Source: Sipunculus nudus
Taxonomy: Eukaryota; Annelida; Sipuncula; Golfingiida; Sipunculidae
Direction of reading: 5' to 3'
Length of the DNA stretch: 64,000 nt
NCBI GenBank assembly: GCA_026874595.1
Contig: CM049320.1
Span: 8,995,464-9,059,463 of the forward strand
Program-made: the position numbers and the translations under genes
Part shown: piece by piece, positions 14,353 through 56,553 of the stretch
Layout: the number at the start of each line of letters is the position of its first letter
How positions within the stretch are numbered: position 1 is the first letter of the stretch
Notes under the pieces: generated by a model
Told to the model about the DNA's origin: nothing
The model's input: only the letters and a program-made list of their open reading frames with translations
The model's database searches: none

Positions 14353-15403
14353 TAGTCCCCCTTTCATTGATAATTTGACCATCTTATTATATGATATCCA
14401 GGTCTTGGCTTTTTCTGCATATATTTGCAGCTTCTTGTGTGACCTGGGGTTGCTTGCTAATAAACACATATACACGTAGATATGTAACCCTGGTCAGCTG
14501 TGTATTTATATATTGTGTATGATAATATGGTGTATATATGTAAAAATGTAAATATGTACTTATGTATGCATGTATTTCTTAATTAGGTCAGCACTGGGCA
14601 CCCTCCGTTTTGTTTCATGTCCTGTATACAAGTCATCTTAGTAGCCCAGTTTCAAATAAGTTTGATTTGACAGAATGATTCTTCAAATATACAATAAACA
14701 TTTAAAAATACATTGTTTTCGTTATAACTCTGTGGATACTTTCCTTCATATGTCCTCGGTGAATCGCAAACAGCCTTCCCTTGGCCACACCCTATCAGAG
14801 TCGATACTTTATACCAAGTCTAACGAATGTGATCAAATTGTAGCAAACGCAGACTGACGTCGTAGGGTCACGTAAAAATATAGTACTACGGAATCTGAGA
14901 ATACAATAAAAACTGATGAAAACAAAATTATATATATATATATATATTTGTTTAAAAATACATGGCTGAGTACATCGTCTGAAATGACTATACATTAGTT
15001 TAAAGAAGACCAATATTAAATGTTAAAGTTAATTTTAATGTATTTTTGTGCTTCTGCTATAATAACCCATGCTTGTTATGAACCCATGACAAAGTATCAC
15101 TCATTTGATTCCTATATTATTTAACACTGTTGAATCATTTAACTCTAAAAATCTATTCGACCAAGAACACCCCTCAATAACGTCTCACTGATGTAGTGAC
15201 CTTGTCCTATTTCAAACCTGCACAAAGAAATTACACTCTCTTTTTTATGATTTAGTTATGATCAGGCCAGCATTAAGCCGTGAAATTATTCTACGAAAAA
15301 CCACCATGCAAAATCCTGCATATATACATTTATGTGATTAATCTGAATCTCATACCACCAGAAATGACCAGGCATATAAAACAAACCGACTCTCTGCTTT
15401 ATT
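14353..15403. other. Intergenic, no supported gene
   Basis: AT-rich sequence with an (AT)n tract at 14929-14947. No ORF with recognisable domains. Confidence 0.6.
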
Positions 15404-18289
15404 GTATCCCCAGACAAAGTCGGGGGATACTATGTTTTCATACCGGTACCGCCGCCGCCGCCGCATATAAATTTTGTTGGCACGATAACCCAAAAAATAT
15501 TTCACGGAACTTTACCAAACTTGGCATATGTATAGATATGGGTTAGAGGACGACGCCTATTTAAAATAAGGTCATGACCTTAACTAGGAGAGTGTCCTTG
15601 ACCTTGAATAGGTCCAATTTTGGGGAAAATCACACAAATTCTTTAATATCTCAAGAAATCTTGCATGGATTTATCCCAAAATCAAGTTGATGGAAGATCA
15701 TGGATAGGGTTGTCATGTTCCAGAAACTGGTGGCGCCACCTATTATTCTTTACTTGTTTTCGTGCCGTTTAATACCCCCAAAATTGCCACCTTACAGTAC
15801 TGTGAGCATTATAAGTCAAAAACTAATGGACAGATTTCTTTTATATTATGCATATACATAGGTATGGGTTATGGGATGATGTTTATTTAAATTGGGGTCA
15901 TGACCTTTCCTATGATAGTGGCCTTGACCTTGAATATTGCCATATATGGTGAAAATCACACACCTCTTATGATATCTCCAGTGTTGATAGCCATATGGAT
16001 TTCAAACATGACTTATGTATGGCCCACCACTAAAGTAAGAACCCTATAGGTTCTAGGGTCATGAGGTCAAAGGTCAAGGTCACTGGACTGGCATTTTAAA
16101 AGATACTGTGGATGCATTTTAAGCCAAACTTTCATCCCAGGTCTTCCATCTTGAATATATAGCTCACTTGCCAATAGTGGATGATCCATATAAATTTTGG
16201 GGTCACAAGGTCAAAGGTCAAGGCCACAGGAGCTATCTGTCAAAAAATTAGTTTCTGGATGATAATTCCTGCTTTTATGAATGTATTGATTTCAAATTTG
16301 ACTTATATATGTCCCATTGAAAAAGAAAAAAAAACTCCAATTGATTTTGGGGTCATGAGGTCAAAGGTCAAGGTCACAGGACACATCTTTAAAAAGATTG
16401 TGGATGCATTTTCAGCCAAACATTTCATCTCAGACCTTTCATCTTGCACATATAAGTCATCTGCCAATAGAGGAAGACCCCTATCAGTTTTTAGGTCACA
16501 AGGTCAAAGGTGAAGGTCACAGGAGCCATCTGTCCAAAAATTAGTTTCTGGATGATAATTCCTGCTTTTATTGATGTATGGATTTCAAACTTGACTTGTA
16601 TATGTCCCATTGGAAAAGCAAGACCCAAATTGATTTTGGGGTCATGAGGTCAAAGGTCAAGGTCACAGGACACATCTTTAAAAAGATGTGGATGCATTTT
16701 AAGCCAAACTTTCATCCCAGGTCTTCCATCTTGAATATATAGCTCACTTGCCAATAGTGGATAATCCATATAAATTTTGGGGTCACAAGGTCATGGCCAC
16801 AGGAGTTATCTGTCCAAAAATTAGTTTCTGGATGATAATTCCTTCTTTTATTGATGTATGGATTTCATACTTGACTTGTATTTGACCCATTGGAAAAGCA
16901 AGACCCGAATTGATTTTGGGGTCATGAGGTCAAAGGTCAAGGTCACAGGAAACCTCTTTAAAAAGGTTGTGGATGCAATTTCAGCCAAATAATTCATCTC
17001 AGATCTTTCATCTTGCACATATAGTTCACCTGCTAAGAGTGGAAGACCCCTATCAATTTTGTGGTCACAAGGTCAAAGGTGAAGGTCACAGGAGCCATCT
17101 GTCCAAAAATTAGTTTCTGGATGATAATTCCTGCTTTTATTGATGTATGGATTTCAAACTTGACTTGTATATGTCCCATTGGAAAAGCAAGACCTGAATT
17201 GATTTTGGGGTCATGAGGTCAAAGGTCAGGGTCACAGGACACATCTTTAAATAGATGTGGATGCATTTTCAGCCACACATTTCATCTCAGATCTTTCATC
17301 TTGCACATATAGCTCACCTGTCAAGATAGAAGGACCCTATCAATTTTGAGGTCACAAGGTCAAAGGTGAAGGCCACAGGAGCCATCTGTCCAAAAATTAG
17401 TTTCTGGATGATAATTCCTTCTTTTATTGATGTATGGATTTCAAACTTGACTTGTATTTGACCCATTGGAAAAGCAAGACCCGAATTGATTTTGGGGTCA
17501 TGAGGTCAAAGGTCAAGGTCACAGGACACATCTTTATAAAGATTGTGGATGCATTTTCAGCAAAACAATTCATCTCAGATCTTTCATCTTGCACATATAG
17601 TTCACCTGCCAAGAGTGAAAAACCCCTATCAATTTTGAGGTCACAAGGTCAAAGGTGAAGGTCACAGGAGCCATCTGTCCAAAAATTAGTTTCTGGATGA
17701 TAATTCCTGCTTTTATTGATGTATGGTTTTCAAACTTGACTTGTATATGTCCCATTGGAAAAGCAAGACCAAAATTGATTTTGGGGTCATGAGGTCAAAG
17801 GTCAAGATCACAGGACACATCTTTATAAAGATGTGGATGCATTTTCAGCCAAACATTTCATCTCAGATCTTCCATCTTGCACATATAGTTCTCCTGCCAA
17901 GAGAGGAAGAAAACTATCAATTCAAGGTCACAAGGTCAAAGGTGAAGGTCACAGGAGCCACCTGTAAAAAAAATTAGTTTCTGGATGATAATTCCTGCTT
18001 TTATTGATGTTTAGATTTCAAACTTGACTTGCATATGTCCCATTGGAAAAGCAAGGCCCAAATTGATTTTGGGGTCATGAGGTCAAAGATCAAGGTCACA
18101 GGACACATCTTTAAAAAGATCAAGGTCACAGGACCAACATCTTCAACAAGATTGTGGATTGTTAGATGGAAGAAACAATAAATATGCCAAGTGTCAGTAT
18201 ATGCTGCTAAAAATGGGGGTCTGTTCTTAAAGGGGGGGGGGCTACTATGTCTGGGGATACTCTGGCACCTGCGGTGCCAAGAAATGTCT
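15404..18289 (+). mobile_element. Helitron-like non-autonomous element built of 288-bp higher-order repeats
   Basis: The left part starts near a GTATCCCC...GGGGATAC hairpin (15404-15430) and a (GCC)n run. The core holds about seven dimeric units; AGGTCAAAGGTCAAGGTCA-like motifs start at 16064, 16358, 16647, 16927, 17216, 17503, 17792 and 18080, spacing about 280-294. Each dimer is two diverged ~145-bp monomers. The 3' end carries a perfect hairpin GGCACC-TGC-GGTGCC, then nine bases, then CTAG followed by T, resembling a Helitron 3' terminus. There is no Rep/helicase ORF. The same 3' end is repeated at 19349. Confidence 0.65.
16064..18098 (+). promoter_or_regulatory. Array of nuclear-receptor DR1 / TCAAGGTCA motifs
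   Basis: Monomers contain AGGTCAAAGGTCA, a perfect direct repeat with 1-bp spacing (DR1, the RXR/HNF4/COUP-TF type). It is immediately extended to TCAAGGTCA, the ERR/SF-1-type half-site. Full 19-base matches occur at 16064, 16358, 16647, 16927 and 17503, with one- or two-base variants at 17216, 17792 and 18080. Related AGGTCAAAGGTGAAGGTCA forms occur in the alternate monomers. Whether any is bound is unknown. Confidence 0.6.
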
Positions 18290-19165
18290 AGTTAGAATAA
18301 TTGGCAGAATGCTTAATGTAAATGGAGAGAATAACTTTCATGGATGTTTCTGTAACTGAAGAGTATTAACTGGAGATAAATGTTTTATACAGAAGTAATG
18401 TTTCCTTGTAACTCATATCAGATTAACAGGCTTGTTGTTGACACAGATTTTATCACAGTATCTAGCATTTATGCGTAATGTATTAATTGACATAGTCATT
18501 TGGGCTCCACCCAAATCGCAAGTCACTGGTCACTCAAGATCAGTATCACAGGGCATAGGTAAAGGTATTAGATTATAACAATAAGATCTGTATAAACCTG
18601 TATATTAAAAATGGGTGCATGTTCTGCAGATTTAACCTCTTGTATTAATTGCATTAATAGTCTAGAGATTGTAGGGTGATATCCAAGAAATCCTCATATC
18701 CTATAAACAAGGATGAAAGTTCAGCTTCAGTTATTGTACTTGAGCATTGTAATATAATAAATAGTTATAGGGTCTTAGTATTAAAGTAGTATTGGTTTAA
18801 ATCCTTCAAGCCCGGCTGTCTCCTGATATATGAGACCCCAATGGTACCATATGACATAACATGAGAGGGGTAGGGTTAGACTCCCAACTGTGCCTTACAG
18901 AGAGAAATCCAGCAGGGGAGGGGTTTCTATAGCCACTTGTGGCTTCCATTTTACAGTGTCCTTGACTGTTGGGGAGTAATGAATAGGGCCTAATTAACTC
19001 CTTAGTAAAACAAACGCTAGATGCTAAACTAGGCCTGCAGAGCTTCCTGGTTAACCCAGACTTCACGCTGTGTGGTTATGACTGTTGGTTGAGGGTAAGT
19101 AAGAGGATATATAAACAAGTTTGTTCTGCTTCTGTTGTTAATGGCCAGCTGGTGGAAGGTGTGCA
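18290..19165. other. Spacer between the two Helitron-like 3' ends
   Basis: No supported gene. The minus-strand open frame here is short, Pro/Ser-biased and without domain features. Confidence 0.5.
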
Positions 19166-19167
19166 CA

Positions 19168-19349
19168 CTCAAAGTCACAGGACCAACATCTTCAACAAGA
19201 TTGTGGATTGTTAGATGGAAGAAACAATAAATATGCCAAGTGTCAGTATATGCTGCTAAAAATGGGGGTCTGTTCTTAAAGGGGGGGGGGGGGGGGAGCC
19301 TACTATGTCTGGGGATACTCTGGCACCTGCGGTGCCAAGAAATGTCTAG
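19168..19349 (+). mobile_element. Second copy of the Helitron-like 3' end
   Basis: From AAGTCACAGGACCAACATC to GTGCCAAGAAATGTCTAG this duplicates about 18122-18289 with few differences, apart from a longer poly-G run (19280-19296). Both copies end at the same CTAG followed by TT. That supports CTAG as a true element boundary. Confidence 0.75.
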
Positions 19350-20856
19350 TTCAATATGTGCTTTCCTGCCTAAATAAAAATAACATTTGACACCTGCACA
19401 TAATATAGACACGCTCTGTATTTGCTCCCTTAGGCCTCACATGGTTGATAACAATGACTGCATCCCATATCTTTTGTAATATGATAAGCAGCTATTTTGG
19501 TGTCAAGTCCTATCAGCCAATGTAACACTTCGCTGGGCCCGGCATTTCCTGCAGAATTGAGGAAAACGAGTCTTTCTTTACATTTTAACCAAAAAAAAAA
19601 AAAATACTTTATGCGCACGGAATGTATTAACAATTATATACATATGGTTGTTGCCTTGCTATCGGACACGTGTTGCAATTAAGGTGGCAGGACTGGTCCC
19701 CCCAACTGACCTTACTTTGTTTCAGTTTTTCCTTTGCATGGAACAAACTTATTCTTTTATACCCCCTAAAGTATATATTTTCTGAAAGCTAAGAAAATTC
19801 TCTATAGTTTGTTGATAATAAACTTTGTTTTTGAGGAACAGGTTTGAATTTGTAAGAATTTTAATTTAATTTTAATTTTTAACAAAAAATCGTTTATTCC
19901 AGCACAACTAAAGCAGATACAGAAAATCTTCTTAAATAAATCGAGAATTTAGATAATAATCCCCAGGCGTTTTTTTTGTTTAGTGAGTTTAGTTTAAAAA
20001 TTACGATTTTACAGAGTATTTAATTTTGAAATCTTCACAAATCATTTCATTTTTTACTTTTACCTCAATAAAATCCTTCAAATTTAGTATAGGCGTAAAT
20101 TAAAAAAACGCTTTTTAGAAGACATTTACAGTTATATATCTCAAAGATGGTATGTTTCGAACAAGTGATTACTGAGAAATAACGCTCTAAAGATAAGGTG
20201 TTCAGGTGAAATGATGTTCCGAGAAAATGCCAAAAACTATATTCGTAGAGATCATTCGTCCTACACACGTAAATAACCACAACTACATGTTGACAGTCAC
20301 ATGGGTTTGGTCAAGACGGTGGTTCTTATCAAACCATGCTATAATAACATGGATTAATTGACTATTTTGCTTTAAAAACGTATTAAAACGATAAAAGTTT
20401 GTCCTGTCACACCAGCGACTTGTCAAACTCCACGTGCATGGATTTCAGTAGGCGGAGCTTACAGTTTTGGCCGAGTGCCAAGGTGCGCTGAGCACTCGAC
20501 AACCCGGACCCGCGGCTGAACAGGTGCATAGCCGGGCCTAATAGGTAACCGCGTGTTTACACAGGAACAAGAGGAGCGGGATCTATGGCCATTCAAGGAG
20601 AACGAAGATTGATTAACTTATCACGGTTTACATACATTATAGGTATTTGGGAGTTGACAATAGAGACGAGTTTATAACGATCATACAAATCTCGTATAAA
20701 ATAAATTATATATTTACCGACTACCGAGCGTCAACATCCGTGTCATGGAGAGGGCCTCGTATAAGTTATTATAAATTTTTGTACAATCCATGTATAATAT
20801 ATAAAGTTTATATTTAAATCTCGCTTACACATACAAGTCATATGTGAAATCTGGAC
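19350..20856. other. Intergenic, no supported gene
   Basis: A short segment at 19434-19475 is an inverted relative of 26165-26200 (CTCACATG-TTGATAACAATGA). A GC-richer stretch at about 20400-20620 resembles a promoter by composition only. Confidence 0.5.
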
Positions 20857-41938: not shown

Positions 41939-43294
41939 GTGATTTTATGTCTTCTGGTTGGCAGTCAGATTGTGTGGTTACCGTTGGACACATGGAAGGC
42001 AGGGTCAAACAATACACATGTATCAGGAAACCTCCGGTGCGAAATTACGGACCTTCCGTGCCTCGTAAAGAAAGTGTCAACGAAGGTACTAGACGGAAAT
42101 GAATTGATTATAACGCTAGTTATTGTAGATGAATCATATATAGAAATGTTCCTGAATTTTGCCCTGACAGCGAAAGACAACGGAGTCATGAATGTTCTAC
42201 CTTTCGGGCTTAGTCTGAAAACCGTTGAGGAACTTATGAGCCGGGGGTTTGCCGCCTACTACGACCCATCCCTTGGAGAGTTAGGGACCATGGAGCATCC
42301 TTCTGGCAGCATTGGCTTTAAACGAAAGGGGAATCTTAAGTTTCTCTGCCACTTTGCGACTTCTCTCTCTTGGATACAATGTGCTTTTGATGGATCTGGA
42401 TGCAATTTTCATTAAAAATCCGTTTCCGTATTTCAGTTGTAAGGAATGTGATATTGAGATACAGCAAGCCATAAAGGGTATGTCGAACAAGCTTTGCATT
42501 GGAGTGGTACTTTTCCGGAAAACCGTGCCTACAGTAAGCATTGTAATAGAAATAAAGAGAATATTGAGCAAAAATCCACGTTTGTGGGACAACGCAGTTA
42601 TGGAAAAAACGATGATAAGCTGGAGAGAAATGAAGCGAATAAGATATAATATTTTACCATTCCAGCTTTTCCCTACAGGCCATGTCTTTAACAAGGAGAA
42701 CATGTACACATTCAACATATCAGAAACAGTGATATTTCACAATAACTACAATGTATGGTCTCGTATTAAGAAGTATCGATTTAAAGAACTGGGAGGTTGG
42801 TTCATGGATACTGACAATTATTATAGCAGTACCTCTAAGAAATACATAACCTACAACACCATGTTTCCTGTAGACCGAAGCAAAAATCTCGCAGACCTTA
42901 ATAATGGACTTAGATTAGCGAAATTACTAAACAGATCACTGATCCTGCCAATCTTTCATTGTCAAAACCTGCAAACGACAAAGCCCTGTCCATTGGACAC
43001 AGTTCTTGTGAAACATTTTGTGAAATGGGACACTGAGAACGAAAACTTGTACCGTGAACACGCGTTTCTACGAAACAAAAATGTTCCACAGTCAGTTAAA
43101 AATTCTATCACCGAACCTCTCATGGTTTTAACTGAAGAAACAAGAGGAAACAGTTCCTTGTTGGATTTATATGTATTCAAACAACACAAGATAAGTATGG
43201 TCCAACAGAAAGTGAACTCGTTGGATGGTTGAAGCAATATAATGATTTCTCTGTGATCCAGATGCATTCTATGAGATTTAAACTGAGATCCTGA
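41939..43294 (+). pseudogene. Nucleotide-diphospho-sugar glycosyltransferase, intronless with two frameshifts
   Basis: The first frame runs to about 42340 (K-V-L-D-G-N-E-L-I-I-T-L-V-I-V-D, then S-R-G-F-A-A-Y-Y-D-P-S-L). A one-base excess near 42340-42346 moves the reading to a second frame: L-R-L-L-S-L-G-Y-N-V-L-L-M-D-L-D-A-I-F, whose DLD (42393-42401) is the DxD metal/nucleotide-sugar motif of the Nucleotid_trans (PF03407) fold. L-P-F-Q-L-F-P-T-G-H-V-F and V-I-F-H-N-N-Y-N-V are further family landmarks. Near 43188 a one-base deficit returns the frame, ending D-K-Y-G-P-T-E then W-L-K-Q-Y-N-D-F-S-V-I to TGA (43292-43294). The family works in the Golgi, transferring sugars to glycans. No internal stops other than those after the frameshifts suggest recent inactivation or assembly indels. 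The N-terminal anchor was not found. Confidence 0.75.
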
Positions 43295-47059: not shown

Positions 47060-47405
47060 GAAAAATGAAAGAAACATGAGTTGAACAGGTTCTTGATATT
47101 GCTTAACTGTTTGATATTCCAACTTTTTAATTAAAAAATGATGCAAAAGCTCCAGTATTTGAATAAGTAATGCATTGATCGCCATGATTATTCCATACAT
47201 TTTAACCTTGCAGTGTTTCATAATTTCTGGAAGACTGTTGGCGCCATCTGTACTTTTTCTAGTTTTTACGTACTTTTTCTCTATTTTTGATACCTTCAAA
47301 TGAAGTAGCTCGGACCATAATAGGGCAAAGACCGGTTCCTTTAGACCTAAAACATTTAATTGTACATCCTGGGAGGTCCTAAAAATCTAATCGGAAACTA
47401 AAATT

Positions 47406-48659
47406 AAGTCATTATGACCTTTTTTAAGCGAGCTAATGGCCGAAATCATGATTTGGAGAGTCAGACCGTGCACATATTGTATCCATTTTGCCTAAAACCT
47501 TCTATTGCTACATTCAGGGAGGTCCTGGATAAATGTCTTTGAAAACATGAAACAAGGTCACCGTGACTTCAAACGTGCGAGCTATAGGAAAAAACATGAT
47601 TTATGCACCATGAAAGTCAGATGGGCTTAATTTATATCCATTAGGCCAAGAATCTTCTAACGCTACATCCAGGGAGTTTTTTTGGTTTTGTTCAGAAACG
47701 TTTAACTAGGTCATGATGACCTATATTTTGCGGGTAATTGGCAAAAAACCCATGATTTTGAGCACCGTGACAGTTAAAAATGGCAAAAATGGTATCCGTT
47801 AGACATAGAAACTTAATTTCTAACCGTACTTTCAGAGAGCTCCTTGGCTAATCTCCTCAGAAACCTGAACTTAGGTCATGGAGACATATATTCTGCGTGT
47901 TACCGGCCGAAAACATGATTTCGAGCACCCAGAGAATCAGACAGGGCACAGCCTGTATCCATTTGTTGTACAATCTTCTGATGTGACATTCACAGAGGTC
48001 CTGGGTAGACGTCCCTAGAATGATGAAATAAGGTCACTGTGACCTATATTCTGTGAGCTATTGGATAAAATTATTTAAGCACCCTGATGATGTGCACAAA
48101 CTGAATCCGTTAGGACTAGAATCTCTCATGTAATATCCAGGGACGTTTTTGACAAATTTTCTTGGAAACCTGACATTAGGACATGATGACCTATATTCTC
48201 CAAGAGACTTGCCGGAAACTTGGTTTTGACCAACCAGACAGTCAGATAAGACACAAATTGTAACTGTTAGGCCTAAAATCTTTAAACACAACATCCAAGG
48301 AGGTTTTGTTCAAATATTTCTAACATGAAATTAGGCCATGGTGACCTATATTCAGCAAGCAACTGGCCAAAAATATGCTTCTGTGCACCTAGACAGGCAT
48401 GGCACCAAACGTTAATGTTTGACCTAGAACCTTCTAATATGACATCCAGGGAGGTCCTTGGCAAGTCTCTTTTGTAATCTGAAATTACTTTACTGTGACA
48501 TATATTTTCTGAGCTATGAACAGAAAACCTAATTATGAACACCCAGAAGGTCAGACAGGTCACAAATCTTAACCGTTGGCTCCAGAAAAGTCTTTCTTAA
48601 TATAAAGGGATGTAACTGTCATGTCTCTTTTGTCATCCAAAATAAGATCACTGTGACTC
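47406..48659. promoter_or_regulatory. Periodic ERE-like inverted repeats (AGGTCAnnnTGACCT)
   Basis: One IR3 palindrome per 155-bp unit. Perfect AGGTCACTGTGACCT is at 48031-48045 and symmetrical AGGTCATGATGACCT at 47708-47722. Partly decayed versions lie at 47406, 47555, 47873, 48178, 48333, 48487 and 48645. The motif is the steroid-receptor (ER-type) consensus. Binding is not shown. Confidence 0.6.
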
Positions 48660-51700: not shown

Positions 51701-52371
51701 TTAGGCTTTTTGGGCTAGTTTCACATTCTCGAAAACAGTGTTCCACCAACAACCTTCGCCTCTTCTTCGAGGAACTGGACGGAACCCTTTATTCTCTAGA
51801 AGTTTTCTTATTGAATTAATCCAAGTTGCTGCTCCTTGTGTTTCCACAATGAAGTATTTAACGGGTATGGTCCAGTCCATAGTTTCCAGGACCACCATTT
51901 CTCCACCTTCAACATCCAGACTGAATAAGTCTATGTGTTTGATTCCTGCCTCCTGAAGTATTTTCCCCATCGTCATACAAGGTACCTCCACCAAGATGTT
52001 CCTCTTAATATTCCACTGTCTAAGATGAGCTTGAGACATATGAACTAGAATGCCTCCTACAGCCGCCGTGTGAGAAGCTGTGAAGTTTACTTTAGTCTTG
52101 CCTTCTTTACATACCGCCATTTCTCTTGTTATTGATTTAGGACGATTTTTCTTTAACAACCGTGAAGTTTCCGGTTGTCCCTCGATTAAAACACCACTCC
52201 AGCCTAAAGAATCTTCAAAGAACTTTGTGTTTGTCAGCCCTAAGCCGTCATATGCTCCGATTTCTACGTACGTTCCATTACATAATATTGGGTTTGAAAA
52301 GAAACGTTCAAACAGTCGGTGGTCTTCACAACACTGACCGTAGCATTTGCCTTTGTTTTTTAACTCACATT
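51701..52371 (-). CDS. FkbM-type methyltransferase, exon 2 (catalytic domain)
   Basis: Minus strand, after acceptor TTTATTTCAG. Two bases complete the Lys codon begun in exon 1, then 222 codons to the stop, giving a 279-residue spliced protein. Landmarks of the FkbM family (Methyltransf_21, a Rossmann-fold SAM-dependent methyltransferase): Y-V-E-I-G-A-Y-D-G at residues 91-99 (SAM motif I), L-I-E-G at 118-121, and I-D-L-F-S-L-D-V-E-G-G-E at 203-214. A Cys-rich stretch (C-Y-G-Q-C-C) opens the domain. The C-terminus is G-C-W-W-N-T-V-F. With the N-terminal anchor it probably acts in the Golgi lumen; the substrate is unknown (FkbM proteins often methylate hydroxyl groups of sugars or small molecules). 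No stop or frameshift interrupts it. Confidence 0.85.
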
Positions 52372-52798
52372 CTGAAATAAAGACGTAATTCTATGTCAAA
52401 TAACTAATGTGTCAAACCATATTTTCCATATGCGACACCAACTTTCAATGTTGAATTTACTATGATTAGAACATGCGGTTTTCAATATATATATATATGT
52501 ATATATATATATATGGGTACAAATCTCCAGGAATCATTAATGTTCCATTATGGTGGTCATAAGATAATATAAAATTAGGTAGGAATTTACCAATATTTAA
52601 GTAATCATTTTCATGTGCTTTTCAATGTTTGACATTCTTTTGATAAAATTTAAATGCCACTGTAATATATCAAAGACCAATACGTAATTTCATAAGATGA
52701 CATCTGACTATTTCAAAACGCAATATCAATGGTGTTAACAGTTGTGGAAATGTTGAAATGCTATTAAGACGTTTGAAAAACTAAAGTAAAATACGTAC
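52372..52798 (-). other. Intron of the FkbM gene
   Basis: 427 bases with donor AAAA|GTACGT and acceptor TTTCAG on the minus strand. Contains an (AT)n run at about 52485-52514. Confidence 0.8.
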
Positions 52799-54509: not shown

Positions 54510-56553
54510 ACAAAACTCATATCTAAACAAATAATTCATTGATCACCATGACTTTTTGCATGGATATTGACCAGAGAGTGTTTCATCAGTTTCTGCAGAC
54601 TCATGGTGCAATATGTATTTTTTTCGAATTTTTACGATTTTTTTTCTCTATTCTTGAGATTTTTAAGGATGTGTTTATCTGTTAACAAGGCACAAATCGT
54701 AATCACGGGACCTAGAATCTTTCAACTTGACATCCTTGGAGGTCCATGATAAGTCTCCTTGGAAACCCGAAATTGGGTATCTGTTACCGTTATCCTCCAA
54801 ACTATAGTAGCCCGCCTCCCCAAGATAATGCAAAATAATTACAAAAGCTCATTTATCCGAACAACTAATGCAATGATCACAAAAATTCTTTACATATCCT
54901 CAAAGCTATGGGGCACAGAATTAGCGGCCAATAAATTTAAAAGTTTGATACACAAGGTAAATTATCTGAACAACAAATGCATTGATCACCATTATTCTTT
55001 GTATGCATATTGTTCCTGGGGTGTTTCATCATCTTCTGCAGACTTGTGGTGCCATCTTGATTTAAAAAATATAACGCACTTTTTCCACTATTTTTGTGAC
55101 TTCTGAAGATGAGGTCATCTGTTAACAGAGCACATTTCGTAACCACTGGACCTAGAATCTTCTAACTTGACATGCAGATGGTCCATGAAAAATTTCCTTG
55201 GAAAGCTAAAATTAGGTCTCTGTTTCCCATATTCTCCGAGCGATGACAACTAATGCATTTATCGCCATGATTCTGTGCATGCATATTGGTCATGGAGTGT
55301 GTCATCAGTTCCTGCAGACTGGTGGCGCACTTGTACTTTTTTCAATTTTCTACATTTTTTGTCTATTTTTGAGACCTTTAAAAATGCAGTTATCTGTTAA
55401 CATTGCAAAATTAGTTACCACTGGACCTAGAATCTTCTATCTTGACATGCAAAGAGGATCATTAAAAGTCTCCTATAAAACCTGAAATAAGATCTGTGTT
55501 ACCCATATCCTCCGAGCTTTTGGGCTCAGAAGTACCCCCCCCCCCCCAGAGAACAATGGAAAATTTGACACAAAAGCACAAGTATCTGAACAATGAATGC
55601 ATTGATCAACATTATTTTTTATTGATCATGGAGAGTTTCATCAGTTCTTACAGACTGGTGGCGCTAACTGGATTTTTATAGTTTTTTCAGATTCTACCCT
55701 CTAAATTTGAGACCTTTTAAGATGTGGTCTTCTGTTAACAGAGCACAGATCCTTATCACTTAACCTCGAATTTTCCAATTTTTCATCAAGGTAGGTCCAT
55801 GAATAGTCTCCAAAGAAACCAGAAACTAGGTCTCTGCTACCCATATCCTCAAAGCTATGGGGCACAGACTTAGCGGCCAAAAATAAGAATTTTATACAAA
55901 GGTCAATAATCTGAACAACTTATGCATTGATCACCATAATTCTTTGTATACATATAGTTCATGGGATGTTTCATCATTTTCTGAAGATTTGTGGCGCCAA
56001 TTTGATTTTAAAAATTTTTTACGCATTTTCCTACTATTTTTGAGATAGTTGTAAATGGTAACCATTGTTCCTAGAAGCTTCTGACTTCCTGGGAGGTCCA
56101 CAAGGTGTTGTGGACCTAAATTAGGGTTCTGTTACCTATATTCTCTGAGCTATGGTGCTTATAATCACCCCCCAGAATAATTAAATAGTTTGATTCCAAA
56201 GCAGGGCACAAATCATTATCATTGGACTAAGAATCTTCTAATTTGACATCATGAGAGTTCTACAAAAGTTTACCTGAGAAACATGACTTTAGGTCACTGT
56301 GACCTATATTCTGCGAGTTACTGCGAGTTAGTGAGCACCCAAAAACATATGCAAAATACCCACAAATTGTCAGTTTCCTCAGGAACGGATCCATGGTATG
56401 TCATTTAATTTGGTGTGTTTATGGTTCTTGATGAACTTAAGCTAATATGCCTAAACGATGATGTCACCTACATTTTCTTGATTCTTTTCGTGTTCAAGGT
56501 AATATTGTCAACATGTCAGTCGACCGAGCGTAATGACCCATAGGTCACTTGTT
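54510..56553 (+). repeat. Third tandem array (300-440 bp units), closest relative of copy 1
   Basis: Units are marked by GTTAACA-GGCACA-like blocks near 54680, 55120, 55397 and 55735, and by TTGACATGCAG / GGTCCATGA text. The final 250 bases match 2070-2340, including AACATGTCAGTC then GACCGAGCGTAATGACCCAT at 56510-56542, and end in AGGTCACTTGTTC. A perfect AGGTCACTGTGACCT lies at 56291-56305. Confidence 0.85.

Follow-up and report, generated by a model that had tools for sequence, protein, structure and literature searches.

The tandem array of putative nuclear-receptor sites in the 64-kb stretch of DNA analyzed here (C15:8995464-9059463, hereafter the window) is very probably the central repeat module of a HINE, i.e., a non-autonomous Helentron, and the short core of its monomers recurs in otherwise divergent element families. 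Our best overall explanation, to which we assign a probability of roughly 0.4, is that the core of this HINE array is kept in active lineages for candidate binding by host nuclear receptors.

Anatomy of the carrier element and its array

The features of the element are as follows, in coordinates of the window.

15404-18291, plus strand: HINE (non-autonomous Helentron) bearing the array, with TT-flanked ends in its copies and no ORF of at least 150 aa inside
15404-15415, plus strand: 5' subterminal inverted repeat (subTIR) of 12 bp, GTATCCCCAGAC, pairing with 18249-18260
15419-15430, plus strand: internal inverted copy (IR) of the 5' subTIR, GTCGGGGGATAC, three bases past it
15449-15464, plus strand: CCG microsatellite of the left module, read from the sequence, with comparable runs in other copies
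15524-15981, minus strand: two repeat copies (15524-15655 and 15850-15981), 326 bp apart, with minus-strand TCAAGGTCAAGG and GGTCATGACC
15994-18120, plus strand: central tandem array of alternating A and B monomers in 289-bp dimers (TRF score 3166, 88% matches; monomer alignment)
16064-16082, plus strand: exact 19-mer AGGTCAAAGGTCAAGGTCA, one of five
16501-16519, plus strand: B-type variant AGGTCAAAGGTGAAGGTCA, also at 17070, 17646, and 17933, and at 17357 with a further change
18249-18260, plus strand: 3' subTIR, GTCTGGGGATAC, partner of the 5' subTIR at 15404-15415
18264-18278, plus strand: 15-bp 3' palindrome GGCACC-TGC-GGTGCC, conserved in other copies
18288-18291, plus strand: 3' terminus CTAG, followed by TT, read from the sequence and from other copies
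19169-19349, plus strand: second, 5'-truncated copy of the HINE 3' end, matching at 94.5% overall

Several hallmarks of HINEs are found at 15404-18291, namely a 5' subTIR with its internal inverted copy, a 3' subTIR with a short palindrome, and a CCG microsatellite together with central tandem repeats. HINEs also lack coding capacity, and none of the six window ORFs of at least 150 aa (stop to stop) lies inside the element. The insertion of HINEs at TT was judged from the flanks of copies: TT stands upstream of 13/13 matching 5' ends on contig C1 (11 distinct flanks, with three copies in locus L051 sharing one) and downstream of 9/9 close 3' tails (8 distinct flanks), which end in CTAG in eight cases and in GTAG in one. 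A more diverged 3' tail in L046 reads CTAGAT, i.e., it has AT after CTAG. Copies of this HINE thus sit between TT flanks and are spread through the genome. We rejected a canonical Helitron on account of the 5' end, which lies at or adjoins the subTIR GTATCC rather than TC, and of the TT on both sides, where insertion between A and T would be expected; the CTAG of the element is compatible with the canonical 3' CTRR, but the 5' TC is absent.

The truncated copy at 19169-19349 is identical to the HINE 3' end at 171 of 172 bases, plus one 9-base gap in a G run, and this near-identity suggests recent spread or duplication. HINE copies stand head to tail in L051 (C1:1404000-1413900), where the 3' palindrome is missing; tandem rolling-circle products or a local duplication might leave such an arrangement. 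Rfam gave no match in 14500-20000.

The array has a period of 289 bp and 7.4 dimers, each made of an A and a B monomer, and it comprises 14 full monomers of ~145 bp (139-150 bp) and one partial monomer. The perfect DR1 AGGTCAAAGGTCA occurs eight times in the window, always within the array, compared with a mean of 0.00 in 100 shuffles. The exact 19-mer (at 16064, 16358, 16647, 16927, and 17503) accounts for 5/8 A-type sites, five B copies read AGGTCAAAGGTGA, which is an imperfect DR1, and the B3 monomer has lost one half-site via a 7-bp deletion. A loose DR1 (RGKTSA) is matched by 13 sites between 15400 and 18300, and TNAAGGTCA by 12 sites on the plus strand. The half-sites of the array have the form of nuclear-receptor response elements, as DR1/DR0 or extended TNAAGGTCA, judged by the consensus sites of NR5A, ERR, HNF4, COUP-TF, and RXR. 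The sequence of the A monomers also has an upstream GGGTCA as an additional half-site, so that the half-sites are arranged as DR2, DR1, and DR0. In three A monomers, a palindrome of type CACATCTTTAAAAAGATGTG follows a few bases after the motif (16671-16690, 17240-17259, and 17816-17835).

These data bear out part of the original prediction, which had described a transposable-element array of ~288-bp dimers with perfect DR1 and ERR/SF-1-type sites, a slightly different version in the alternate monomer, and more than a dozen candidate sites in 2 kb. The element extends on both sides beyond the span of 16064-18098 given there. The motif or a near variant had been foreseen in each dimer; the motif is indeed exact in five of the A-type sites, but the B3 half-site is lost.

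Other boxes and reading frames were observed elsewhere in the window. A diverged ~155-bp array at 47404-48350 carries the palindromic GGTCANNNTGACC (IR3) at 47709 and 48032, and a single one lies at 56292. IR3 is the spacing of vertebrate estrogen-response elements. Genome-wide, TTAGGTCACNGTGACCTA gave 3,698 strand-hits vs 1 for the control, where both strands of one site can count. A repeat family at 954-2100 and 54900-56330 (337-bp period at 954-1996) has a degenerate form of the IR3 box, AGGTCTCTGTTACC. In addition, reading frames with a nucleotide-diphospho-sugar transferase domain and with an FkbM methyltransferase domain are located at 42285-43229 and 51704-52390, respectively.

A core common to divergent element families

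Counts over the 1.43-Gb genome (153 contigs) revealed 22,468 exact copies of the 19-mer vs 0 for a reversed control, and 59,602 vs 2 within one mismatch. Two other exact 19-mers from the same A monomer occur 5,333 and 7,881 times genome-wide, so the motif 19-mer is 2.9 to 4.2 times as frequent. This excess means that the motif is shared beyond the A monomer type, or better kept, or both, and it is as expected if several families share the motif. In 50 kb of arbitrary stretches (L052-L061), AGGTCA is ~2-fold over-represented (51 vs 25) and ranks 3 of 180 six-mers with equal composition, which indicates that GGTCA-rich repeats are common in this genome.

When all monomers of the window were aligned, the identity between A and B was 0.866 in the 19-bp core vs 0.461 outside it, the top of 158 sliding windows with one tie, in agreement with the earlier claim that the motif core is better conserved between monomers than the rest of the unit. 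We then sampled 20 stretches from the first 100 listed motif places, which were selected by the exact 19-mer, together with the window. The 206 motif-like instances in this sample fall into flank clusters of 165 and 40, plus one singleton. Cluster I is of the HINE type (15 loci, including the window), and cluster II, hereafter family II, is another element (6 loci). Their consensi have in common the core, CCTATTG[A/T]TTTTGG just upstream of it, and a GCTTT[C/G]AAA-like box (GCCTTCAAA in the refined consensus), all at equal offsets, and the two clusters are therefore probably old relatives. In L035 (C1:290500-300000), a tandem unit of ~1.26-1.34 kb holds one family II core per unit.

A scan of genome contigs with the 19-mer returned 11 loci, of which three were used: L002 and L003, filed under the Bacteroidetes MAG Glo_2, and L008, filed under a Bathymodiolus brooksi symbiont. 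These contigs, although filed in bacterial bins, are presumably host DNA, and they contain two HINE-like families (ends read by eye) with the core in repeated monomers. The A monomer of the window has 24 identical bases in common with L002/L003, and 23 in common with L008. Once the motif was masked, no match between families from different sources had an E below 0.2, making the core the sole match between them. Core identity is partly built in, since L002, L003, and L008 were found by the 19-mer search and the 20 sampled stretches were picked by its exact places; for the contigs, only the four or five additional bases and the repetition of the core inside each array count as independent evidence. 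Among monomers cut at motif-like anchors, the core scored 0.900 vs 0.444 in the L002 array (rank 5 of 196) and 0.897 vs 0.571 in the L003 array (rank 13 of 175). The bins of L002 and L008 yielded no arrays besides those of the three loci. L002 also has an IR3-type AGGTCAGTGTGACCT site at 223-237, and both box types thus co-occur on that contig.

The remaining eight loci (L004-L007 and L009-L012) have a single site or a few neighboring GGTCA repeats and were set aside; L004, L006, and L011 were read in part, and L005, L007, L009, L010, and L012 were judged from motif lists. L006, which might be animal DNA, was left out of the comparison. Viral contigs were also discarded: the 19-mer and its 18-base form match only L001 (61% GC, single site, no array), the IR3 pattern occurs in 8 contigs with one or two sites each, and the paired-DR1 pattern is found in 3 contigs, in other repeats.

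The match to receptor sites could be a by-product of a GGTCA-rich repeat whose core has no special status, and the excess of AGGTCA in arbitrary stretches is in line with this. We consider it very improbable, given the 22,468 exact 19-mers against none for the control and the identity, in other sources, of a further four or five bases outside the 19 used for the search.

For family II, 41 copies in 17 subfamilies were recruited by their flanks with the motif masked, from stretches chosen for the exact motif. The best conserved 13-mer among them is AAGGTCAAGGTCA (0.945), and the core is the best window at 9 and 13 bp among the 17 subfamilies. Two non-receptor boxes are nearly as conserved (GGCCACAATTTTG, 0.933; CTATTGTTTTTGG, 0.921), and conservation is lower in the first DR1 half-site (0.58-0.87 per position vs 0.94-1.00). 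In an unweighted ranking of 161 windows, the 19-bp core takes place 14, and place 44 in the 23 copies that do not have the exact core. An estimate of 0.956 vs 0.713 was discarded because the copies concerned had been chosen by the motif. As AAGGTCAAGGTCA, not the DR1, is kept best in family II, the old core is a DR0-like double extended half-site. That the core recurs in another element family of this genome, and also in two HINE-like families with otherwise unmatched monomers, indicates that it has been kept over deep divergence.

The core could alternatively serve the element itself, as an iteron-like site that is read by the Helentron Rep/helicase or used in replication, and that HINEs keep for their mobilization. 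Spaced direct repeats do resemble iterons, and HINE-like elements from three sources carry the core, the ends of two families being read by eye. The genome also holds at least 143 Helitron_like_N (Rep-domain) matches, several of them in open frames of >2,200 aa, and some autonomous rolling-circle elements may therefore have remained active. Against such a role, two 9.9-kb stretches around Rep matches (2 of at least 143 at that length), one of them with an ORF of 2,235 aa, have neither DR0 nor DR1, and the same is true of six Rep stretches of 3.4-3.6 kb, one of which overlaps a 9.9-kb stretch. The six were also scanned for an autonomous Helentron partner, and the HINE ends were not found in them. 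Because none of these stretches is established as a HINE partner, they are weak evidence against recognition by Rep. In addition, the core of L008 is reversed relative to its element (read by eye), and one study (PMC4067079) places the likely signals for transposition in the terminal sequences, namely the subTIRs and stem loops. Taken together, we judge recognition by the element's own machinery to be unlikely.

Drift among recent copies

The picture differs among recent copies. In the window, the core scores 0.970 vs 0.818 outside it among the 7 A monomers (rank 15 of 158), and 0.837 vs 0.839 among the 7 B monomers (rank 99 of 158). Recruitment by flanks only, in which 15/91 A hits and 8/79 B hits were dropped for coverage of <80%, left 76 A monomers with a core of 0.935 vs 0.886 (rank 8 of 143), most of them from stretches chosen for the exact motif; in the 29 A copies without the exact motif, the core scored 0.829 vs 0.877. 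The 71 B monomers recruited in this way, from 14 loci and none with the exact 19-mer, gave 0.933 vs 0.906 (rank 48 of 144). Ten random 5-kb stretches contained no such monomers at E 1e-6.

We also analyzed the co-occurrence of the motif with control 19-mers, using 80/100 listed motif places, 34/100 listed upstream-control places, and 50/100 listed downstream-control places (to 1.42 Mb). Nineteen motif places at 291422-350731 and one at 1611728 (C1) were omitted, as no used control place lies there. Some of the places in this analysis belong to head-to-tail copies and so do not count as independent. Among the 34 places with the exact upstream control, the exact motif is present at 23 and the exact downstream control at 22. 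At the 50 places with the exact downstream control, the motif was found in 29 and the upstream control in 22. The ratio of one-mismatch to exact sites is 1.65 for the motif, inflated in part by the B variant, which is one mismatch away, vs 1.17 for the control 19-mer. This even decay of motif and control sites suggests that copies drift after insertion, with no clear protection of the motif. The core thus stands out between divergent monomers and families, but the refuting test named in the original prediction, motif conservation over many copies, has a negative outcome for recent ones.

Substitutions within the core were assessed in 34 instances from three sources, within 5 mismatches, with one instance off register and with L2 and L3 counted apart. 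Even the least conserved of the 19 positions keep their commonest base in 29/34 instances. Half-site substitutions fall into 26 distinct types, 6 of which fit the tolerant RGKTSA, close to the one in six expected by chance. The DR1 spacer, A in 33/34 instances, is as fixed as the half-sites rather than free. Both results argue against a simple DR1 that is selected only through its half-sites. They cannot distinguish a receptor from another protein that recognizes the entire block.

Passive inheritance would account for a good part of these data. According to this explanation, the core is what remains of an old, shared repeat module, and its overlapping GGTCA units slip and homogenize in arrays, and there is no binder. 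The even decay of recent copies, the half-site deletion in B3, the conservation of other boxes, and substitutions that do not follow a receptor tolerance pattern are all in its favor. By itself, drift should not favor one stretch repeatedly, yet the core has the highest conservation of any window between A and B and, in windows of 9 and 13 bp, across the 17 family II subfamilies, and it alone matches between families of different sources. We therefore regard passive inheritance as possible, although somewhat improbable.

Proposed receptor binding and known systems

We tentatively predict, from sequence features, that binding by a host protein of the nuclear-receptor class is the reason why the core is kept. 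More specifically, active element lineages would keep the core (AAGGTCAAGGTCA, usually extended to AGGTCAAAGGTCAAGGTCAC) for such a protein. The likeliest candidate is a receptor of the NR5A/ERR type that would read TCAAGGTCA, as AAGGTCAAGGTCA, which contains the extended half-site, has been kept longest; HNF4, COUP-TF, or RXR may bind the DR1 in addition. Receptor occupancy of the array could then maintain open chromatin at the element, or its expression, in the germ line or the early embryo. Most copies would drift neutrally after insertion, and a few could become receptor-responsive enhancers.

A broader proposal is that an invertebrate rolling-circle superfamily has kept the nuclear-receptor platform AGGTCAAAGGTCAAGGTCAC as its monomer core over very deep divergence. 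It would thereby have sown tens of thousands of near-perfect NR5A/ERR/DR1 sites in one genome, wired the element to germ-line or embryonic receptors, and supplied ready-made enhancers. We regard this proposal as rather unlikely.

If receptors bind the core, a single transposon superfamily would account for a very large pool of receptor sites in the genome of an invertebrate. It would also offer a testable DNA transposon tied to host hormone-receptor biology, comparable with Alu/HNF4, B1/NR5A2, and Helitron/HSF-1. If no receptor binds it, HINE repeats would swamp genome-wide scans for DR1, ERR, or NR5A motifs in such genomes. In either case, it is directly testable why one short core persists in the central repeats of HINEs when most of the unit has diverged.

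A search of the open-access literature returned no description of a GGTCA core in HINE repeats and nothing on AGGTCAAAGGTCA combined with mollusc terms; GGTCA itself was absent from the main texts examined, GGTCAAAGGTCA was absent among the matches listed, and the matches for TGACCTTTGACC with "repeat" concern other subjects. Cg_HINE of Crassostrea gigas (PMC7492417) resembles the window element in having a 5' subTIR with IR, a microsatellite, a satDNA-like central array, and a 3' subTIR with palindrome, and it is likewise a non-autonomous Helentron. It differs in that GGTCA is absent from the main text of that study; the two were compared by description. The DINE-1/HINE elements of arthropods (PMC4067079) share the subTIRs, the 3' palindrome, the TT target, and optional tandem repeats, but they belong to another host group and no such core is described in the sections available. 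The bivalve satellites BIV160, Cg170, and pearl (PMC5139131), also compared by description, have divergent monomers with two conserved motifs and can sit in Helitron-type elements.

Other repeats are known to spread receptor sites. Alu elements carry HNF4 sites, for which binding was demonstrated by protein-binding microarray and ChIP (PMC3252374), and are reported to carry DR2 RAREs (PMC1785376); they represent a repeat family that distributes nuclear-receptor sites over a genome. They differ from the HINE array in being primate repeats with demonstrated HNF4 binding. Mouse B1 (PMC10709309) shares the repeat-borne NR5A-type motifs; it differs in being a SINE with no tandem array, and occupancy by NR5A2 was reported in embryos. 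The HSF-1 elements in Caenorhabditis Helitrons (PMC6927752) provide a case in which the Helitron superfamily carries many sites of one factor, although that factor is another one and both occupancy and gene effects were demonstrated. Collectively, HINE carriers, repeat-borne receptor sites (Alu and B1), and Helitron-borne HSF-1 sites are already known, and what is unusual here is the deeply kept core.
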